From the NCBI GenBank assembly GCA_031281585.1, contig JAITFE010000062.1:1-52505 (forward strand): a DNA stretch of 52,505 nucleotides, given 5' to 3'. Position numbers and translations under genes: made by a program. Source of the DNA: Bifidobacteriaceae bacterium (GTDB taxonomy: Bacteria > Actinomycetota > Actinomycetes > Actinomycetales > WQXJ01). This document shows, one piece after another, positions 19,966 through 52,505 of the stretch (position 1 is the stretch's first letter; the number at the start of each line of letters is the position of its first letter). The notes beneath the pieces are model-generated. The model was not told the DNA's origin, did no database searches, and worked only from the letters and a program-made list of their open reading frames with translations.

Positions 19966-20045
19966 TGGGGGCGGCACCGGTTGCGGCAGGCCGGAAACAG
20001 GTACCGTCCCCGTTTCCGCCGGAAATAGGTACCGTCCCCGTTTTT
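19966..20045. repeat. Imperfect GGGGACGGTACC REP cluster after dapE
   Basis: Three related half-units are found between the LOG gene start and the dapE stop. At 20018-20045 a half-unit reads CCGGAAATAGGTACCGTCCC and then CGTTTTT, identical to the arm at 7063-7084. At 19991-20014 a second half-unit has the single change AAACAGGTACC. At 19966-19987 an inverted degenerate copy GGGGGCGGCACCGG can pair with them. As at 7089, the element begins only a few bases after the stop codon of a minus-strand gene. Confidence 0.8.
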
Positions 20046-23201: not shown

Positions 23202-24509
23202 CTAGGAGCGCTGGTTGACGGGCACGTAGTCGCGTTGCGGCTCGCCCACGTAAATCTGGCGCGGACGGCCGATCTTCCCGGCCGGGTCCTGGATCATCTC
23301 GCGCCACTGGGCGATCCATCCGGGGAGGCGGCCCAACGCGAATAGCGGGGTGAACATGGACGCCGGGAAACCCATCGCCCTGTAAATGATCCCGGTGTAG
23401 AAGTCGACGTTCGGGTAAAGACGGCGCTCGGCGAAGTAGTCGTCTGAGAGCGCGGCCTGCTCCACCTCGTGGGCTATGTCCAGCAACTCGTCTTTGACCC
23501 CAAGGGCCGCCAGCACCGCGTCGGCCTGCTTCTTGACGATGGCCGCGCGCGGGTCGTAACTCTTGTAGACGCGGTGGCCGAACCCCATCAGCTTCGCGCC
23601 GGAGCGCTTGTCCTTGACCCGCGCCATGAAATCCTTCGGCTCGATGTCGTTGTCGCGGATGTAGGACAGCATGTTCAGAACCGCCTCGTTGGCGCCGCCG
23701 TGGAGCGGGCCGGAGAGGGCGGAAACCCCGCCGGAGACGGACATGTACAAATTCGCCTGGGCCGACCCGATCATTCGGACCGAAGAGGTCGAGCAGTTCT
23801 GCTCATGGTCCGCGTGGAGGATCAGAAGAGTGTCGAGCGCCCGGTAGAACACGTCTGGCGCGTCGAACCGCTCGCCCGGCAATTGGAAAGTCATGCGGGC
23901 GAAGTTCTCAATATAGCTTTGCCCGTGTTTGGGGTAGAGCAGCGCGTTGCCTTGGGCTCGCCGGTAGATGTAGCTGATGATGGTGGGCATCTTTGCCAGC
24001 AGCAGCACGGTGGCGAGGCTCGCGGCGGACGGGTCCAGCGGGTCGAGCGACTCCGGGTAGAAGCCGGCCATCATGTTGATCGCGGCGCCCAGTGTGGCCA
24101 TGGGGTGGGCCCGGCGCGGCATCACGGAGAAGATCTGCCGGAAGTCGTCCGACAGGTACATATGCTTGTCGATCCGTGTCTCAAACGCCTCCAGGTCGTG
24201 AGCGCTGGGTAATTCTCCCCTGATTAACAGCAGCGCCACCTCAAGAAACGTCGATTTCTCCGCCAACTGCTCAATCGGGTAGCCGCGGTAGCGGAGGATC
24301 CCGGCGTCGCCGTCAATGAAGGTGATCTGCGAAGCGCATGGCGCCGTGTTGAGGTAGCCGGTGTCCAGTGAGATCAGCCCGGTTTCCTTCATCAGCGGGG
24401 TCATGACGATCCCGTGGTTGCCCTGGCTCGCGCGAACTGTGGCAAGTTCGATGGTGCGGTCGCCGACCTGCAGGGAGACTTGAGGCAGTTCGTGTTCGGT
24501 TGCCGTCAT
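23202..24509 (-). CDS. gltA: Citrate synthase (type II-like)
   Basis: Citrate synthase, 435 residues, first step of the TCA cycle. Catalytic residues are in place: His270 (SGPLHGGANE), His312 (GFGHRVYKSYDPRA) and Asp369 (NVDFYTG), with His235 in ADHEQN at the substrate site. The N-terminal beta-domain of 55 residues before GYLNTAP is that of the actinobacterial/Gram-negative long form. A strong GAGGAGG box (24517-24523) precedes the ATG. It is convergent with the lysozyme-like gene, 21 bases apart, and lies downstream of dapC on the same strand across a gap with an orphan repeat. Confidence 0.97.
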   Translation of the reverse strand: MTATEHELPQVSLQVGDRTIELATVRASQGNHGIVMTPLMKETGLISLDTGYLNTAPCASQITFIDGDAGILRYRGYPIEQLAEKSTFLEVALLLIRGELPSAHDLEAFETRIDKHMYLSDDFRQIFSVMPRRAHPMATLGAAINMMAGFYPESLDPLDPSAASLATVLLLAKMPTIISYIYRRAQGNALLYPKHGQSYIENFARMTFQLPGERFDAPDVFYRALDTLLILHADHEQNCSTSSVRMIGSAQANLYMSVSGGVSALSGPLHGGANEAVLNMLSYIRDNDIEPKDFMARVKDKRSGAKLMGFGHRVYKSYDPRAAIVKKQADAVLAALGVKDELLDIAHEVEQAALSDDYFAERRLYPNVDFYTGIIYRAMGFPASMFTPLFALGRLPGWIAQWREMIQDPAGKIGRPRQIYVGEPQRDYVPVNQRS

Positions 24510-24632
24510 GCGGTGACCTCCTCGTGTGCTGGGACGGATCGTGACCAGTCCTTTAGATAAGTTTTGGGGTAATTATGCCGGAAGGTTGCGGTGTTCGCTG
24601 TGGGCCCCGTTCCGGGACCCCAAGTGTGGGCG

Positions 24633-24681
24633 AAAACACGATCGTGATCCGCCGCCGGATCACGAAGAGCGTCTAGGTCGC
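24633..24681. repeat. Orphan copy of the 93-bp repeat core (hairpin)
   Basis: The bases AAACACGATCGTGATCC, then GCCGCC, then GGATCACGAAGAGC, and a GGTCGCA ending, match the core of the tandem array at 42150-42577. The centre is a perfect 8-bp stem CGTGATCC/GGATCACG (24643-24664) with a 6-base loop. It lies between the dapC stop and the gltA start; read on the minus strand the stem is followed by ATCGTGTTTT, so it might end the dapC transcript. The rest of the 188-base gap must hold the gltA promoter; no clear boxes seen. Confidence 0.75.
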
Positions 24682-24697
24682 ACTCGCTGCCCGCCGG

Positions 24698-25828
24698 TCA
24701 CGCCCCGGCCAGGCGGGCGGCCGCCTCCGCGACATCCCGGTCAGATCCCGTCAGGGCCATTCGCACGAACGCCTGCCCGGCCTCGCCGTAGAACGCGCCC
24801 GGCGCCACCAGGATGCCGAGCCCGGCCAGGTCCGCCACCGTCTGCCAGCAATCCTGGCGTTCCGGGGTGGTGAACCACAGGTAGAGGCCCGCGCCCGAGC
24901 CTTCAAGTTGGTAGCCCGCCTCCCTGACAGCGCCCATCAGGATTCGCCTGCGCCGCCCGTAGGCCTCGCGCTGTGCCGCGACATGCCCCTGGTCCTCCAA
25001 GGCCGCGACCATGGCCGCCTGAACGGGCGCGGGCATCATCATGCCCATGTGCTTGCGCAGGCCGGCAATCCGCGCGATCAGGGCCGGGTCGCCCGCCAGC
25101 CAAGCCGCCCGGTACCCGGCGGCGTTGGATTGCTTCGACAGCGAATACAGGGCCAGCAAGTTGGCGAGCGAGCCATCCCCCACACGCGGGTCCAACAGTG
25201 ACGGCACTCCGGCCGAAACCCACGGCTCTTCCCACGCCAGCGCCGCGTAGCATTCGTCGCTGGCGACCACGGCGCCCGCGTCGCGGGCCCATTCGACCCA
25301 CGCCGCCAATTCCGCCGGCCCGGCCACCCGCCCGTCGGGGTTGCCGGGGCTGTTCAGCCAGACCAACCTGACCTGGCCGCGCAGGTCGGCGGGGATTTCC
25401 CCGGGCGAGTTGGCTGGGACGGGCGTGGCCCCGGCCAGGCGAGCCCCCACGTCGTAGGTTGGATAGGCGACGCTCGGATGCGCCACCACGTCCCCGGACC
25501 GCAAGCCCAGCAGCGACGGCAACTGGGCGACCATTTCCTTGGAGCCGATGGTCGGCAGCACGCCCGAGGCGGGAAGGCCCGGCGCCCCCCGCCAAGTCGC
25601 GTAATGCCGCGCTATCGCCTCGCGCAAGTCCGGCGAGCCGATCGTGGCCGGGTACCCGGGCGCGTCCGCCGCCGCGCGCAAGGCTTCCCTAAGCACCTCC
25701 GGCGTCGGGTCCACCGGCGTGCCGACCGACAGGTCGATCAACCCGCCCGGATGCTCGCGGGCTCGGCGCTTGTAGGGCTCCAGCAGGTCCCATGGGAATG
25801 TCGGAAGGGCGGCGGCGTCGAATCCCAT
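24698..25828 (-). CDS. dapC: N-succinyldiaminopimelate aminotransferase
   Basis: A 376-residue fold-type I PLP aminotransferase. The PLP Lys is residue 232 in LYSLSKQSN; the WLNSPGNPDGR motif and ASDECYAALAW (Asp/Tyr contacts to PLP) are intact. The actinobacterial DapC N-terminus (FPWDLLEPYKRRAREHPGG) and its place next to the 7Fe ferredoxin gene identify it as DapC rather than a general aspartate aminotransferase; the same pair is adjacent in mycobacteria. It supplies N-succinyl-LL-DAP for DapE. The gap to the ferredoxin stop is 15 bases, so both are probably one transcript. Confidence 0.93.
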   Translation of the reverse strand: MGFDAAALPTFPWDLLEPYKRRAREHPGGLIDLSVGTPVDPTPEVLREALRAAADAPGYPATIGSPDLREAIARHYATWRGAPGLPASGVLPTIGSKEMVAQLPSLLGLRSGDVVAHPSVAYPTYDVGARLAGATPVPANSPGEIPADLRGQVRLVWLNSPGNPDGRVAGPAELAAWVEWARDAGAVVASDECYAALAWEEPWVSAGVPSLLDPRVGDGSLANLLALYSLSKQSNAAGYRAAWLAGDPALIARIAGLRKHMGMMMPAPVQAAMVAALEDQGHVAAQREAYGRRRRILMGAVREAGYQLEGSGAGLYLWFTTPERQDCWQTVADLAGLGILVAPGAFYGEAGQAFVRMALTGSDRDVAEAAARLAGA

Positions 25829-26602: not shown

Positions 26603-29505
26603 TTTTGGGTCGCGCCCGGCTTCTTGCAGACGATCGCGTTCATCGGGTCGTAGCGCCAGTGCCAGGTTTCTTTTGCCTGGGCGTTGCCGTCCGGGTCGGT
26701 CCTGATCCGCCAGTAGTCGACTTGGAATCCGGAGCTGCCCATGGATTGCGGCTCGCAGTCGGCCTTGGTCGACTCGATGGTGCGCGGCGCCACGTAGGCG
26801 TACGGCTGGTCGATCCCCGCCTCGACCGTCCAGTACTTGGTGGACCACAGTTCGACCCACACTTTGAGGGAGTCCGTCACGCCCGCCCGCAGCACCACCC
26901 CATACGGGGTGTCGTTTTTGAACTTGTTGTCAATCTGGCCTTCCCACAAGGTGGCCTCCCGACCCGTCGGGTAGCGCGAGAAGTAGTTGGCGTGGGGTTG
27001 GTGTTCCACGTCCACCATGCCCGCCAGGTGCGCCGCGTTGTAGAGGGTCGTTGAGAACTGCGACAAACCGCCGCCGATGCCGTCTTGGGACACCCCGGAA
27101 ACCACCACCCCGGCGTTGAACCAGCCGGTCTCCAGGCTGCGGTGGCCCAGCGCCTGGTCGAGGGAGAACGTCTCGCCCGGCCTGACCAGCATGCCGGTGA
27201 CGATCTCCGCCGCCTTCCGCAGATTCTTGGTCCGGTCCACGCTGTTGGTCGCCTGGGTCTCAAAGCGGCCGACGATTTCCTTTATGCCCATCTGCTCCAG
27301 TTCGGCCCGGCCCGCGGCCGGGTCCGCCTCGGCCAATTCGACTGCGGCGAGGCGCGCGCCGCCGCTGGCCAGCGCGGCGCTGGAGATGGCTTCAACCAGC
27401 CGGTCGGGATTGAGCTTGGAGCCCTTGCGGCCCTCCTCGATGACGGGTTGGCCGTCAACGAACACGAACCGGGCGTCCTCGGCCTGGGTTTCAAGCCCGG
27501 CTGGCAAGCGCTTCGAGACCGACGCCTCCAGCAGTTCCTTGTCCCAATCGAGGCTCAGCCGCTCGCTCCCGTCCGGATCGGGTCCGATCAGGGCCGCCGC
27601 TGCAATCTCCGCGGTTGGGAGTTCCACCGTCGCGTCCGCGACTACCAAGCTGACAGGGCCAGACAGGATCGGCTTGGCGAGCGTTTCGATCGCCTCGTCT
27701 AGCTGTTCCCGGCCTATCTTGGGGGCCAATTCCGACACCGGCAACTGCCACGGTCCGGCCTTCGCCAAGTAGTCCGCCTGAATCTGTTTGATCGCGGCGG
27801 CGGTGTCCAGGCTCAGTCCCGCCGATGGCTCGGTCGTGACGATTTCGCCGGTCGCGACAGCCAGGGTGCCGTCAACCGGTTCAACGCGCGTTTGGGCGGC
27901 CAGCGCCGCCACATGCGACTCCATAGCTTCTCGGTTGACCGTCAGGGAAGGCTTCACCGCTTCGATCCCCCCGATGTGATCCCACAGGCGGACCGGGTTG
28001 AAGGTCAGGCCCGTCACCTGGGCCACCGTGTCCTCCGGCGAAAAGCCGACTCCGGCTATCACCGGATCAAAGGCGGCCTCTTCTTCCCCGACAACCACGG
28101 CGACCGCCTCTTTGGCTTTGGCGTCCAATTCGGCTCGCAGCCGGTCGACTGCGGCGACGTCCGTCAGGCCGCCTATGTCCACGCCCACCACCGAGGCGCC
28201 TTTGGGCACACGGTTGGCGAAGTAGTAGCTGGCGCCCACATATCCAGCGGCCGCCAGCACCACAATGACCAGCGGAATGACCCAACGCGCGCGGCGCTTG
28301 CGGCGCCCTTGGATCTTGCCGGACTTGAGCGGCTTGCCCGATCTCCCGACCGGCAGCGGCATTGTGTCATTGTGTGTCCCGGCCCCCGCAGCTGCGACGA
28401 CTGGCAGTTCGCCGGTGTCAGCCTCCAATTCCGGCTGGGCGGCGGTGTCTGAGGCCGACGCGAGGACTGAGATCCGGCGCGGCGGCGAACTTGTCGGAGT
28501 CTGCGGAATCTGCGGCGATTCGGGCTCGACCGGTTCCTGCTCGCGGGTGTCGCCGATCGCGGAGAGCGAGCCCGCCGCCTCGTCGGGTTCAGCCGCCCCT
28601 TCGTCAGAACTGCCCGCCGCGAGGCCCTGCGCGGGCGGCCGTTCAGGCACCACTGGCTCCAGTTCACCGGTTTCGCCGGCCGCCCCAGGCAGGCTGGCCG
28701 GTTCGTCGAAGTCGGGTTCTCCCGGAGCGGGCTCGGCTTCGTCCATTGGGTCCGCCGCTGAGCTGGGCGTGGTCATTTCGGCATCCTCGTCCTGGTAGGG
28801 CGTCAGATCGGGATCCTCGCCCGCGCTGGGCGCCGGGTCGGCGTGATCGTGGACAGGCGACTGGGGCGGCGGCGTGAAGGCCGGGTCGAGAGATGACATC
28901 AGCGCGCGTTCGGCCAACAAGTCCAGCGGCGCCAGAAACGCCTCCCGGTAGAGCGCGTCACGCTCCAGGCGCTCAGTCTCCGCCATCCCCAGGTCGGCTG
29001 GGGCCGGGGCAACGGGGCCGGGCACGGCCGTGTCCGCCGGGTCCTCTGTCTGGTCTTCGGCGGCCTCGACCGGGGGCTCCCCGACCGACTCCTGGTCGGC
29101 CTCGTGCGGCCGCTGCTCGGCCGACGGCTGCTCGGCCTCGGCTGGGAGCGGGGAAACGGCATCGGGCACCGAGCTGTCGCCCGAGTCCCCGGGCTGGTCC
29201 TCGGCGACCTCGGCGGGGGACTCTCCGACCGACTCCTGGTCGGCCTCGTCCGGCCGCTCCCCGTCCGACCGCTGCTCGGCTTCGGCTGGGAGCGGGGAAA
29301 CGGCATCGGGCACCGAGGCGTCGCCCGAGTCCCCGGACTGGCCTTCGGCGACCTCGGTTGGGGGCTCGGCTTCGGAATCGTGGTCGTCCTGGGGCTCAGA
29401 GTCACGCTCCGGGTCGGATTCGGGAACGGGCGTCACTTCCGGCTCGTCGTTTTCGGAATCGATTTCCGGGTCGTTTTGCGGGGCTTCTTGCACTTCATCC
29501 GCCAC
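26599..29505 (-). CDS. VanW-family protein with PG-binding-type domain and long acidic cytosolic region
   Basis: A 968-residue bitopic membrane protein. Residues 1-400 are acidic, proline-rich and probably disordered, and contain a direct repeat of about 48 residues (VAE-x-QxGDSGD-SVPDAVSPLP, AEAEQ, EADQESVGE) in two clear copies and one decayed copy. A basic patch (GRRKRRAR) precedes one membrane helix at about 406-428. The outer part has two copies of a putative peptidoglycan-binding domain (DPVIAGVGFSPEDT; ARFVFVDGQPVIEEGRKG) and the VanW domain with RTKNLRKAAEIVTGM, RPGETFSLDQALG and GGGLSQFSTTLYNAA. Envelope role likely; reaction unknown. GTG start with GGAGG box at 29513-29517. Confidence 0.9.
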   Translation of the reverse strand: MADEVQEAPQNDPEIDSENDEPEVTPVPESDPERDSEPQDDHDSEAEPPTEVAEGQSGDSGDASVPDAVSPLPAEAEQRSDGERPDEADQESVGESPAEVAEDQPGDSGDSSVPDAVSPLPAEAEQPSAEQRPHEADQESVGEPPVEAAEDQTEDPADTAVPGPVAPAPADLGMAETERLERDALYREAFLAPLDLLAERALMSSLDPAFTPPPQSPVHDHADPAPSAGEDPDLTPYQDEDAEMTTPSSAADPMDEAEPAPGEPDFDEPASLPGAAGETGELEPVVPERPPAQGLAAGSSDEGAAEPDEAAGSLSAIGDTREQEPVEPESPQIPQTPTSSPPRRISVLASASDTAAQPELEADTGELPVVAAAGAGTHNDTMPLPVGRSGKPLKSGKIQGRRKRRARWVIPLVIVVLAAAGYVGASYYFANRVPKGASVVGVDIGGLTDVAAVDRLRAELDAKAKEAVAVVVGEEEAAFDPVIAGVGFSPEDTVAQVTGLTFNPVRLWDHIGGIEAVKPSLTVNREAMESHVAALAAQTRVEPVDGTLAVATGEIVTTEPSAGLSLDTAAAIKQIQADYLAKAGPWQLPVSELAPKIGREQLDEAIETLAKPILSGPVSLVVADATVELPTAEIAAAALIGPDPDGSERLSLDWDKELLEASVSKRLPAGLETQAEDARFVFVDGQPVIEEGRKGSKLNPDRLVEAISSAALASGGARLAAVELAEADPAAGRAELEQMGIKEIVGRFETQATNSVDRTKNLRKAAEIVTGMLVRPGETFSLDQALGHRSLETGWFNAGVVVSGVSQDGIGGGLSQFSTTLYNAAHLAGMVDVEHQPHANYFSRYPTGREATLWEGQIDNKFKNDTPYGVVLRAGVTDSLKVWVELWSTKYWTVEAGIDQPYAYVAPRTIESTKADCEPQSMGSSGFQVDYWRIRTDPDGNAQAKETWHWRYDPMNAIVCKKPGATQN

Positions 29506-38956: not shown

Positions 38957-39030
38957 CTACAGAACGGCTCCCGCCACGGTGCCGGCCAGCACGGCCCCGC
39001 GCAGCACTATGGCTTGGGGAGCGCGCAGCA
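38835..39030. repeat. Tandem copies of the amidohydrolase 3' end
   Basis: The segment GCACTATGGCTTGGGCGCGC at 38841-38860 recurs at 38926-38945 with one change and, inside the coding region, at 39004-39026 with a small insertion. Between them the intervening sequence also aligns (for example GCGGGTGTCG/GCGGGTGCCC and GGCGGGAGCCGTTCTG/GGCGGGGGCCGGGAAC on the minus strand). The unit is about 78-85 bases and includes the stop codon, so the gene's last 25 codons plus stop are repeated about 2.5 times downstream. Confidence 0.8.
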
Positions 39031-40081
39031 CGGCCACGCTTTGGCGCGGGTCGGACGCGTAAACCACCACGTCCGCGCTGGCCCCCTCTTCAATCCCCGG
39101 CACGCCCAGGTAGTCGCGCCCACCGTAGGTGGCGGCCTCAATGATGGCTTCGGCGGAGATCCCGGCCAGCGCCATCAAATCCGTCTCCGTGCAATACACA
39201 CCGTGGGGAATGGTGGTCGACTCGTCCGATCCGACCAGCAGCCTGACCCCTCTGTCATACAGCTCTTTCGCCTGCGCATAACGCGCCTCGTAGAGGTCAA
39301 GGAAGTGCCGCTCCCAGACCGGGTACTTGCCGCCGCCGCCAGCGGCGATCTCGGCGAAATGCTCGCGCTGGATCATGGTGGGAACAACCGCCACACCCTT
39401 GGCTCGCGCCTCCGCCATCATGGCGGCGTCCAGGCCGGTGCCGTGCTCAATGCAGTCAAGGCCGCAACGCAGGGCCTGGGCCGCCCCCTCAGCTGAGAAC
39501 ACATGCGTGGTGATCCTGGCGCCCAGTTCATGCGCCCGGTCAACCGCCTCGACCAGTTTGTCGTCCGGCCACAGCAGGGCCAGGTCCGGCTCCGGCATGG
39601 TGCGGTCAATCCAGTCGCCGACCAGCTTGACCCAGCCGTCGCCGGCGTGGGCCTCCTCCGCCACTGCGTCAGGCAACTGGTCAGGCACAATGTCTCGTGG
39701 CAGGTGGCGGATGTAGCGCTTGGCGATCGCCAGATGCTGGCCGGAACGGATGATCCTGGGTGCCCACGGCTCGCCGTCCAGCCACCTCGTGTTGTAGGGC
39801 TCGCGCGGGCAACCCGCGTCCCGCACCAGGAGGACGCCAGTGTCCCGGTCAAGAACCGCCTGCCGCTCCGCCTCGTCGGGCGGCACCGCGCCCATTGAGC
39901 CCAGTCCGATGTGGCAGTGCACGTCGACCAGCCCCGGCAGGACCACCCCGTCGATTCGCAAATCGGCCGCACGGGTCGGCCTTTCGAAAGTCAGCCGCCC
40001 ATCGACCGACCAAACATCGCCAACTTCCGTGTCGCCATCGACAACTATCGCCCCCGATAGGTGAATCACCTCGGTCGCCAT
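38957..40081 (-). CDS. Imidazolonepropionase-like amidohydrolase family protein
   Basis: A 374-residue metal-dependent hydrolase. The metal motif HxH is in LVDVHCHIGLGS; further ligand candidates are the His residues in TTHVFSAEG and CIEHGTG, and Asp in LLVGSDESTT. The C-terminal strand pair (ASADVVVYASDPRQSVAVL...AIVLRGAV) completes the composite beta domain of the superfamily. Substrate unknown; imidazolonepropionase- or prolidase-like members share this pattern. In actinobacteria such a gene often stands between ffh and rpsP (known context). Its 3' end is part of a tandem repeat. Confidence 0.9.
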   Translation of the reverse strand: MATEVIHLSGAIVVDGDTEVGDVWSVDGRLTFERPTRAADLRIDGVVLPGLVDVHCHIGLGSMGAVPPDEAERQAVLDRDTGVLLVRDAGCPREPYNTRWLDGEPWAPRIIRSGQHLAIAKRYIRHLPRDIVPDQLPDAVAEEAHAGDGWVKLVGDWIDRTMPEPDLALLWPDDKLVEAVDRAHELGARITTHVFSAEGAAQALRCGLDCIEHGTGLDAAMMAEARAKGVAVVPTMIQREHFAEIAAGGGGKYPVWERHFLDLYEARYAQAKELYDRGVRLLVGSDESTTIPHGVYCTETDLMALAGISAEAIIEAATYGGRDYLGVPGIEEGASADVVVYASDPRQSVAVLRAPQAIVLRGAVLAGTVAGAVL

Positions 40082-40514
40082 CAGGCGCCTCCTTTGTAGT
40101 TCTCAGGTTGCCGGATAGCGCCCGTCCCGGTACCAACCTGAAACGATGTGGCTGCGCGCCGCCCGTTACCCACCATTAAACGCCGGACACCGGCCACCGT
40201 CCAAAACCGACGCTCCCCGAGCGCCGCTGACTGTCGCCGCAGATCGACCCCGGCGGGCCAAGAGACCTTGCGTTCCGGCGGCACCGGGCGGACCCGGAAG
40301 GCGTTCGGCAAATTGGGCGGCCAGGTGCGCCACGAACCGAACAGCCCGGCCGGGCCGCGCCCCACCTCGACGCCGTGGGGTGCGCTACGAACCAAGCAGT
40401 GTCCGCGCGAGCCCCGCCCACTCCGGTCCGCCTCGGCGTTGCCGGGTGCGCTACGAACCGAACAGTCCGACCGAGCCGCTCCCACTCCAGTCCGCCTCGA
40501 CGCTGGCGGGTGCG
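40082..40514. other. Gene-free region between amidohydrolase and ffh
   Basis: 433 bases without a credible gene. The 3' portion (about 40324-40514) is filled by repeats derived from the end of ffh. The 5' portion (40082-40320) should contain the amidohydrolase promoter; no clear -35/-10 boxes seen. All open frames here are basic, Pro/Arg-rich shadows. Confidence 0.6.

Positions 40515-40535
<21 letters not shown>
40324..40535. repeat. Tandem copies of the ffh 3' end
   Basis: The sequence GGTGCGCTACGAACCGAACAG starts at 40324, 40379, 40445 and 40509 (with small changes), with intervals of 55, 66 and 64 bases. The last copy spans the ffh stop; the others are downstream. On the minus strand each unit reads ...GGACTGTTCGGTTCGTAGCG, which repeats the last codons (G-L-F-G-S-stop) of ffh. 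The rest of the unit (GCGTCGAGGCGGACTGGAGTG) is also shared between the copies. Confidence 0.88.
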
Positions 40536-42077
<1,542 letters not shown>

Positions 42078-42609
42078 AAGGCCTTAAGGCTACCCGGCCC
42101 CGCAGCGAAGCCCGCCATGAGAATTCCGCGAACGCCATGGACGCCGGTACAACCCAAAACGCGATCGTGATCCACCAACGGATCAGGAAGAGCCCGAAGG
42201 TCGCACCAGAGGCGATCTCGCCGGCCGCCACGCCGCCAAATGCAACCTAGAACACGATCTTGATCCGCCGCTGGATCACGAAGGGCCCGAAGGTTGCACC
42301 ACGGGCCACCCAGGCGGCCGCCACGGTGCCAAATGCAACCCAGAGCACGATCCTGATCCACCACTGGATCACGAAGAGCCCGGAGGTCGCATAGGGGGCC
42401 ACCTCGCCGGCCGCCACGGTGTCAAATGCAACCCAGAACACGATCCTGATCCACCGCTGGATCACGAAGAGCCCGAAGGTTGCACCACGGGCCGCCCAAG
42501 CGCCCGCCACGGAGCCAAATGCAACCTAGAACACGATCCTGATCCACCAGCGGATCACGAAGAGCCCGAAGATCGCATTGGTGCCCCGACATGGGCGTCC
42601 CAACCGCCC
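42078..42609. other. Gene-free region holding the 93-bp repeat array
   Basis: 532 bases between the ffh start and the stop of the nuclease-like gene. About 430 bases of it is the five-unit array (separate entry). The remaining 72 bases nearest ffh must hold the ffh promoter and binding site. Open frames that cross the array exist only because 93 is a multiple of three; they are interrupted by TAG in units 2 and 5. Confidence 0.75.
42150..42577. repeat. Tandem array of five 93-bp units with internal palindrome
   Basis: Units begin at 42150, 42243, 42336, 42429 and 42522 (the last is truncated after about 56 bases); the period is exactly 93 each time. A unit begins CAACCYAGAACACGATCCTG, contains the palindrome TGATCCA-CCGC-TGGATCA, continues with CGAAGAGCCCGAAGGTCGCA and ends with a more variable part GGCCGCCACGGTGCCAAATG. 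Differences between units are scattered single bases. An orphan core lies at 24633-24681. Units are contiguous without spacers, so it is not a CRISPR array. Confidence 0.95.
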
Positions 42610-51708: not shown

Positions 51709-52505
51709 TCACAACGCGTCACGTAGCGCGGCAATCTCTCCATCGTCGGGAAACTGCTGCGCCAACAATCGAATCCGGCCGATGGTGGCCTTGCGCCCCG
51801 CCAAATCCTGGTCCACAGTCAGGTTGTATAGGGCCTTGGCGTGCTGGAGGGCGATGGCCGGGTCGGCGGCGAACCGGCCCGCCAACTCCCCAAGCCGCCC
51901 CACCGTCCCCTCGCGCCCCGCCAAATCCTGCTTGGCGGTCAGGTTGACCAAGGCCATGGCGTGCTGGAGGGCGATGGCCGGGTCGGCGGCGAACCGGCCC
52001 GCCAACTCCCCAAGCCGCCCCACCGTCACCTCGCGCCCCGCCAAATCCTGCTTGGCGGTCAGGTTGAACAAGGCCTTGGCGTGCTCGAGGGCGATGGCCG
52101 GGTCGGCGGCGAACCGGCCCGCCAACTCCCCAAGCCGCCCCACCGTCACCTCGCGCCCCGCCAAATCCTGCACCACAGTCAGGTTGACCAAGGCCATGGC
52201 GAGCGGGAGGGCGATGGCCGGGTCGGCGGCGAACCGGCCCGCCAACTCCCCAAGCCGCCCCACCGTCGCCTCGCACCCCGCCAAATCCTGCACCACCGTC
52301 AGGTTGTATAGGGCCTTGGCGAAGGCCAGGCGAACGGATGGCCCCTGTGCGAGGTCCCGGTTCGGGGGAAACCTGAGGAGGCGCTCACCGGTCCACAGGT
52401 CGCTGAAGGGTGTGGCATTGATGAAATCGCGGGCTGCGCGGCTCATGAAATCAGCGGTCTGCCATGGGCGGGTGGCCCAGGAGGCGTCAAGCAAGGATTC
52501 CAGCC
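51709..52505 (-). CDS. Solenoid protein of 40-residue repeats (5' end outside window)
   Basis: At least 264 residues, open to the window edge, so the N-terminus is probably missing. A leading part (RPWQTADFMSRAARDFINA...FPPNRDLAQ) is followed by five units of 40 residues with the pattern RFAADPAIAL-x-HAKAL-x-NLT-x2-QDLAG and then RE-x-TVGRLGELAG; the last unit is diverged. Each unit is probably two or three helices, as in TPR or ARM-type solenoids. At DNA level four units of exactly 120 bases (51841-52320) are almost identical. The differences fall on a few positions (helix residues around NLT). It is likely a binding scaffold; partner unknown. Confidence 0.85.
   Translation of the reverse strand, partial: LESLLDASWATRPWQTADFMSRAARDFINATPFSDLWTGERLLRFPPNRDLAQGPSVRLAFAKALYNLTVVQDLAGCEATVGRLGELAGRFAADPAIALPLAMALVNLTVVQDLAGREVTVGRLGELAGRFAADPAIALEHAKALFNLTAKQDLAGREVTVGRLGELAGRFAADPAIALQHAMALVNLTAKQDLAGREGTVGRLGELAGRFAADPAIALQHAKALYNLTVDQDLAGRKATIGRIRLLAQQFPDDGEIAALRDAL
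51841..52320. repeat. Four 120-bp direct repeats inside the solenoid gene
   Basis: Units begin at 51841, 51961, 52081 and 52201. The block from base 7 to 66 of each unit (GAGGGCGATGGCCGGGTCGG and onward to CCCCACCGTC) is identical in all four, while bases 67-68, 91-98, 107-110, 116 and the first six vary. Identity at third codon positions shows recent duplication or gene conversion rather than selection on protein alone. Confidence 0.95.

Follow-up and report, generated by a model that had tools for sequence, protein, structure and literature searches.

The gap between dapC and gltA in a Bifidobacteriaceae bacterium contains a short palindrome, and the question that it raises is whether this element acts through RNA, through a bound protein or as a piece of DNA in its own right. 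In the stretch of DNA that was analysed (52,505 nucleotides, contig JAITFE010000062.1; hereafter the window) both genes lie on the minus strand, the dapC-type aminotransferase gene at 24698–25828 (gene call and PF00155) and gltA, encoding citrate synthase, downstream of the palindrome at 23202–24509 (PF00285). An earlier note, made from the letters of the window alone, had placed the palindrome at 24633–24681 and taken it for an orphan copy of a 93-bp repeat, kept as an RNA hairpin or a dimeric binding site and perhaps serving as the terminator of dapC. The palindrome is real and far beyond chance, its exact span being 24643–24664 (CGTGATCC-GCCGCC-GGATCACG). The reading that we favour, and consider moderately probable, is that this hairpin belongs to a family of short palindromic repeats dispersed in the genome, and that the family has spread as mobile DNA of a non-autonomous kind.

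The unit between dapC and gltA and its copies in the genome

The palindrome lies within a single 74-nt repeat unit (24619–24692, plus strand; row 1 of alignment A1), recognised from BLAST and model matches in its own genome and separated by 5 bp from the called stop of dapC. With 24600–24720 as the query, 49 BLAST matches were found in the same genome at E <= 1e-3, self included, the best of the 48 non-self matches reaching 1.4e-16; against a covariance model that was built partly from this same copy the unit scores E = 2.3e-15. The claimed kinship with the array at 42142–42587, 17.5 kb off, is borne out, and this array consists of five units on the plus strand (42142–42215, 42235–42308, 42328–42401, 42421–42494 and 42514–42587), each 93 bp past the one before. 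The copy is not an orphan found once, since the genome (G000) holds 58 confident units at 23 places according to a weight-matrix scan of larger stretches, as well as one weak match, on contig C142, that stands outside every count of 58.

Alignment A1 comprises 53 own-genome copies from the places found by BLAST, aligned without gaps after one false match of 54 (L016:140) had been removed, and the covariance model made from it, which allows gaps, found further copies. The core TGATCC-N6-GGATCA is identical in all 53, in a collecting search that tolerated up to three core mismatches, and in the dapC–gltA unit it occupies 24645–24662 as TGATCC-GCCGCC-GGATCA. Around it the unit of about 74 bp has two different arms, the left type approximately CSAAAMCACGATC and the right type, read on the other strand, approximately CTTCRRGCTCTTC, followed by the outer half-sites GTGCRAC and GTYGCAC, which are equidistant from the unit centre; in the dapC–gltA copy the left half-site is degenerate (GTGTGGG). 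Scored by arm type, 53 of the 58 copies are left/right, four have two right-type arms and one has two left-type arms. The ‘compensated stem’ by which the earlier note set this copy apart is a mis-parse, because the core is identical in the copy and the array, TGATCC and GGATCA being the same in all five array units. The loop ends are G..C and the next outer left base G in the dapC–gltA copy; in the array units the loop ends are A..T (two), A..C (two) or G..T (one), and the outer base is C (three), T (one) or G (one).

Arrays run head to tail with a period of 93 bp, made up of the 74-bp unit and a 19-bp spacer. Exactly 93 bp separate 32 of the 33 same-direction neighbours and 94 bp the remaining pair, the two opposite-direction pairs are 96 and 97 bp apart, and in another genome of the genus, G007, all six counted steps are 93 bp, with another such pair among its matches. 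Spacers from one array are 56% alike and those from different arrays 36%, against 31% for shuffled letters, and whole units are 69% alike between arrays, a difference of about 30%. Under a leave-one-locus-out matrix the in-array spacers score 1.5 versus −1.3, −1.8 and −5.1 for array flanks and random stretches, so that they share some descent or composition with little sequence kept. That the 93-bp step is held and the spacer letters are not is the feature of this family most deserving attention. One bold interpretation, which seems to us distinctly unlikely, is that the step is measured: the unit would bind a protein dimer, contacts between neighbours would fix the 19-bp gap, and the arrays would be a genus-specific scaffold or insulator that has spread patchily together with its protein. 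Were this true, it would account for spacers of constant length and nearly random sequence. A coding repeat was considered and rejected, stops being present in all six frames of the unit in numbers not far from the column expectation.

Arm symmetry, covariation and folding

The idea that the arms change together, so that the hairpin rather than its letters is kept, came with a proposal to look for covariation, and among the 53 own-genome copies there is no excess of compensatory changes. The covariation score is 0.124 versus 0.124 in shuffled alignments, with 239 of 500 shuffles as high, and the RNAalifold covariation term is −0.14. At arm position 10/61 the mismatch A-C leads with 22 copies, ahead of G-C (12), G-U (10) and A-U (9), and the loop ends of the 58 copies (A..C in 28, G..T in 16, A..T in 11 and G..C in 3) are the opposite of pairing. 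The half-sites are conserved yet vary independently within the genome, the combinations A-C, G-C, A-T and G-T being found in 25, 15, 9 and 9 of 58 copies (P = 0.37). An arm-match permutation, which compares the likeness of arms within and between copies, gave P = 0.86 in G000 and P = 0.885 in G007, and P = 0.052 in G002, where the inner part (P = 0.014) provides a hint; it took in eight copies from G002 and 17 from G007, with those of G006 left out.

Because the covariation equals that of shuffles, a selection-kept RNA hairpin is unsupported in this genome, and with A-C as the commonest state at 10/61 and an arm-match P of 0.86 we reject it for the own-genome copies. The broader proposal that the unit is a structured RNA, with tandem hairpins that selection for base pairing maintains, has in its favour that eight tested units, folded as single strands, are more stable than their shuffles (z from −2.7 to −11.5 with DNA parameters; −2.4 for the dapC–gltA copy as RNA) and that pairs co-change between species, but no Rfam family was found for the unit in the window or at eight further loci, and we regard it as scarcely credible. 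At the gathering score, the window yielded no family and the eight loci none except a tRNA; at a relaxed threshold, five loci gave three chance-level matches only.

Between species the picture is different in part. Alignment A2 (33 rows from four genomes) gives a covariation of 0.210 versus 0.154, with none of 500 shuffles as high, a figure inflated by relatedness, given that related sequences can beat every shuffle without any structure, as the covariation tool itself cautions. Its rows are 10 drawn from the 53 of A1, 5 own-genome rows added later and 18 from G002, G006 and G007; the weaker rows (L039, L048 and L052) and copies found subsequently are not among them. The co-changes include C-G to G-C at 12/59 and T-A to C-G at 27/44. 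Joint change of the arms thus stands in part between species (0.210 versus 0.154) and falls within the genome, and a symmetric protein site, a hairpin and copying from arm to arm each predict such co-change.

The dimeric DNA site, which the earlier note had put beside the RNA hairpin, fares better than the hairpin does in this genome, as the half-sites are conserved and the change between species is symmetric. In such a reading the units would be binding sites for a host protein that grips both half-sites as a dimer, and tandem units, by placing several dimers a constant 93 bp apart, would serve chromosome folding, insulation or local regulation. Conservation within the genome is of sequence and not of pairing, the half-sites are symmetric about the centre, the 93-bp step is kept in 32 of 33 cases (six of six in G007), and symmetric co-change between species would fit a shifting dimer specificity. 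A plain dimer site has no need, however, of arms between core and half-sites that clearly differ, as they do in 53 of 58 copies; the flanking genes have no function in common, and the unit is absent from six of the ten genomes of the genus, the nearest included. We judge this reading unlikely.

A further possibility, on which we are doubtful, is that the partial symmetry and the co-change between species come from arm-to-arm copying, through template switching during replication, rather than from selection, with the loop sometimes inverted. Arm homogenisation and spacer inversion are described as marks of template switching between inverted repeats (PMC8604942). Homogenised arms would be seen in the five of 58 copies with two arms of one type, and in a G002 copy whose arms are identical over 21 letters reaching to the loop, the one with the fold z of −11.5. 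The two commonest loops, ACCAGC (15 copies) and GCTGGT (9), are reverse complements of one another on arms of unchanged direction, and such cross pairs number 143, where column shuffles give 24.8 (0 of 5000 as high), or 51 against 10.8 (again 0 of 5000) after repeats within a place are collapsed; we count this signal only as suggestive because the column shuffle breaks up common loops, a milder count of copies with a reverse-complement loop partner giving P = 0.013. Against copying, the arms are no more alike within than between copies in either G000 or G007 (P = 0.86 and P = 0.885). As a claim about how the sequence changes, arm-to-arm copying is compatible with a spread as mobile DNA.

Genomic settings and distribution among relatives

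The genes beside the arrays are unrelated, among them SRP54, RsmB, a proteasomal ATPase, ferrochelatase and dihydrodipicolinate synthase, and several are without a family. GlnR and the proteasomal ATPase point to an actinobacterium. By the first gene calls the 23 places comprise eight convergent, nine co-directional and five divergent gaps and one position within a gene. At a stricter gene threshold, convergent gaps account for 9 of 22 arrays versus 6 of 71 other gaps of at least 100 bp (P = 0.001), a test that used the gene caller of this analysis, a background from the same neighbourhoods and 22 of the 23 arrays. At the 23 places 46 neighbouring genes were called; a Pfam scan of 45 of them detected no transposase, the one left out of the scan being an 80-aa call that overlaps the array in L104. 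The intragenic case is a pair of 93-bp units (L107:17749–17915) in frame in the linker of a 619-aa PspC-domain gene (L107:16772–18628), where they form a 31-residue repeat; the gene in three aligned relatives has different, variable linkers without the unit.

The family is restricted to one genus, and patchy within it, among the genomes searched. Among the 10 genomes of the genus, model R2 matched 4 (G000, G002, G006 and G007); it matched 4 of 18 of the family, all in this genus, and 4 of 297 of the order, in 1 of 95 genera, the carriers being the same four throughout. G004, the nearest relative by dapC (84% identity), has no unit according to R2, which does not confirm a single match at 8e-4 obtained there with model R1. 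A dapC tree of ten rows, some of them partial, places G004 as the sister of our genome with support of 100/99, so the carriers do not form one clade in it and three changes are needed. No match to the unit was found in plasmid and phage records, and the 34 genome and two viral stretches returned by a collection-wide exact scan were taken as chance, none scoring as a full-length unit. A literature search for repetitive extragenic palindromic intergenic repeats in Actinobacteria found no paper; the phrase ‘93-bp repeat’ reportedly occurs in a Klebsiella paper.

Both dapC and gltA could be placed in five of nine relatives (G002, G003, G004, G005 and G008), and in all five the order is kept and the spacer is without the unit, as judged from the first 260 bases of each and, where the spacer is longer (G003 and G004), from the whole-genome search. 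Neither a target duplication nor a clean empty site could be made out at the dapC–gltA place, the spacers of the relatives being too diverged to be aligned there. The spacer of G004 (L135) holds a different short tandem repeat.

These settings bear on the suggestion that the unit is a transcription terminator or a 3′ stabiliser of mRNA, here of dapC. A weak terminator-like stem on the strand of dapC and gltA (24642–24665, minus strand) is indeed followed, some bases later, by a run of four T, the T-run of the earlier note, and by a simple rule this copy yields one terminator site on that strand versus 0.3 in shuffles. Its position 5 bp past the dapC stop and the excess of convergent gaps point the same way. 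The rule, however, picks out only 7 of the 58 units on the dapC-equivalent strand and none of 58 on the other, and 6 of the 23 arrays are situated either between diverging genes or within a gene. Because five of five relatives with dapC–gltA in place are without the unit, it is not a conserved terminator of dapC; we give the terminator reading little credence.

Comparison with known repeats and the favoured reading

Repetitive extragenic palindromes (REP) and their clusters (BIME) are high-copy intergenic palindromes with regular spacing in clusters, often between converging genes and in some cases inside genes (PMC3733652, PMC2817692), and they are marked by a GTAG or CGTC tag that is left unpaired at one palindrome end (PMC3733652). 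The 93-bp family resembles these as an intergenic, multi-copy palindrome (58 units at 23 places, one inside a gene), but its unit is 74 bp rather than 20–40 bp and its neighbours stand head to tail rather than in alternating directions. Neither tag is conserved in the 58 units, GTAG occurring once forward and three times in reverse and CGTC 6 and 10 times. A link to a REP-associated transposase (RAYT) was also rejected: both Y1 transposase (Y1_Tnp, PF01797) genes of G000 were scanned and no unit lies beside either, unit scores there being below −30. In searches PF01797 was absent from the carriers G006 and G007 (the latter 73% complete) and present in G001, G004, G005 and G009, all without R2 units, so the transposase and the unit do not go together in this genus. 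With the tags absent and the transposase test failing, we do not file the family as REP, though it lives much like one.

Rickettsia palindromic elements (RPE) are palindromic repeats of about 150 bp that can sit in frame inside genes, and miniature inverted-repeat elements (MITE) are short, non-coding and mostly intergenic with inverted ends (PMC10969869). The in-frame pair in the PspC gene recalls RPE in one case, a likeness by description; the family differs in having one clear intragenic case among 23 places and tandem arrays at a fixed 93-bp step. With MITE it shares its short, non-coding, mostly intergenic nature and inverted ends, and it differs in forming tandem arrays instead of single insertions; no parent transposon was found among the scanned neighbours. 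In MIRU and similar actinobacterial repeats, units of tens of bp follow one another head to tail in many intergenic regions, and MIRU are not known to be palindromic. Again by description, the 93-bp family is like them in its tandem, head-to-tail arrangement at many intergenic loci and unlike them in being palindromic. The family is best read as new and confined to one genus, its palindromic repeats being of a generally known kind.

We favour spread as mobile DNA because of what is directly observed, namely the copy number and positions (58 units at 23 places), the invariant core, the spacing, the patchy distribution, the dapC–gltA spacers of five relatives without the unit, the unrelated neighbours with convergent gaps enriched, and the one in-frame PspC pair that the relatives’ linkers do not have. 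An enzyme acting in trans, which may read the conserved core and half-sites, would copy units as DNA into fresh sites, mostly between genes. Slippage or unequal exchange would afterwards lengthen or shorten the arrays, and copies would persist where harm is small, between converging gene ends more than expected. The hairpin would serve as a DNA signal or fold and not as a kept RNA structure, and any effect on dapC or gltA, such as weak termination after dapC, would be incidental. Several observations go against this: no transposase stands beside any scanned array and no unit at either Y1 gene, neither an empty site nor a duplicated target could be made out at dapC–gltA, and 6 of the 23 places fall between diverging genes or within one. 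Copies from different arrays are about 30% apart and so give no sign of a recent jump, and the exact 93-bp step with spacers 36% alike exceeds the regularity expected from decay, which argues against a mere passenger.

A supposed one-off RNA hairpin thus becomes a genome-wide repeat family, with none in Rfam or in plasmid and phage records, or beyond four genomes of one genus among those searched. It also provides a caution, in that arms seemingly compensated between two copies may owe nothing to selection on RNA. The strict step with decayed spacers and the in-frame copies are handles for finding the copying or binding factor, no REP-type transposase being linked to the family.

The window contains other repeats. 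A tandem and palindromic GCCGGAAACAGGTACCGTCCCC.. repeat lies at 19990–20043, and the same letters form a 30-bp perfect palindrome adjoining a Y1_Tnp (PF01797) gene on contig C137 of G000 (L127:2309–2370), which points to a second, REP-like family with a likely transposase in this genome. A 144-bp tandem repeat of 2.6 copies (28994–29367) lies within a 968-aa open frame, and one of 64 bp with 2.7 copies (40365–40541) lies between genes at 38957–40081 and 40515–42077, just entering the latter. Finally, a 120-bp tandem repeat of 4.4 copies with 92% matches (51789–52321) falls in a minus-strand open frame, where it makes 40-residue repeats.
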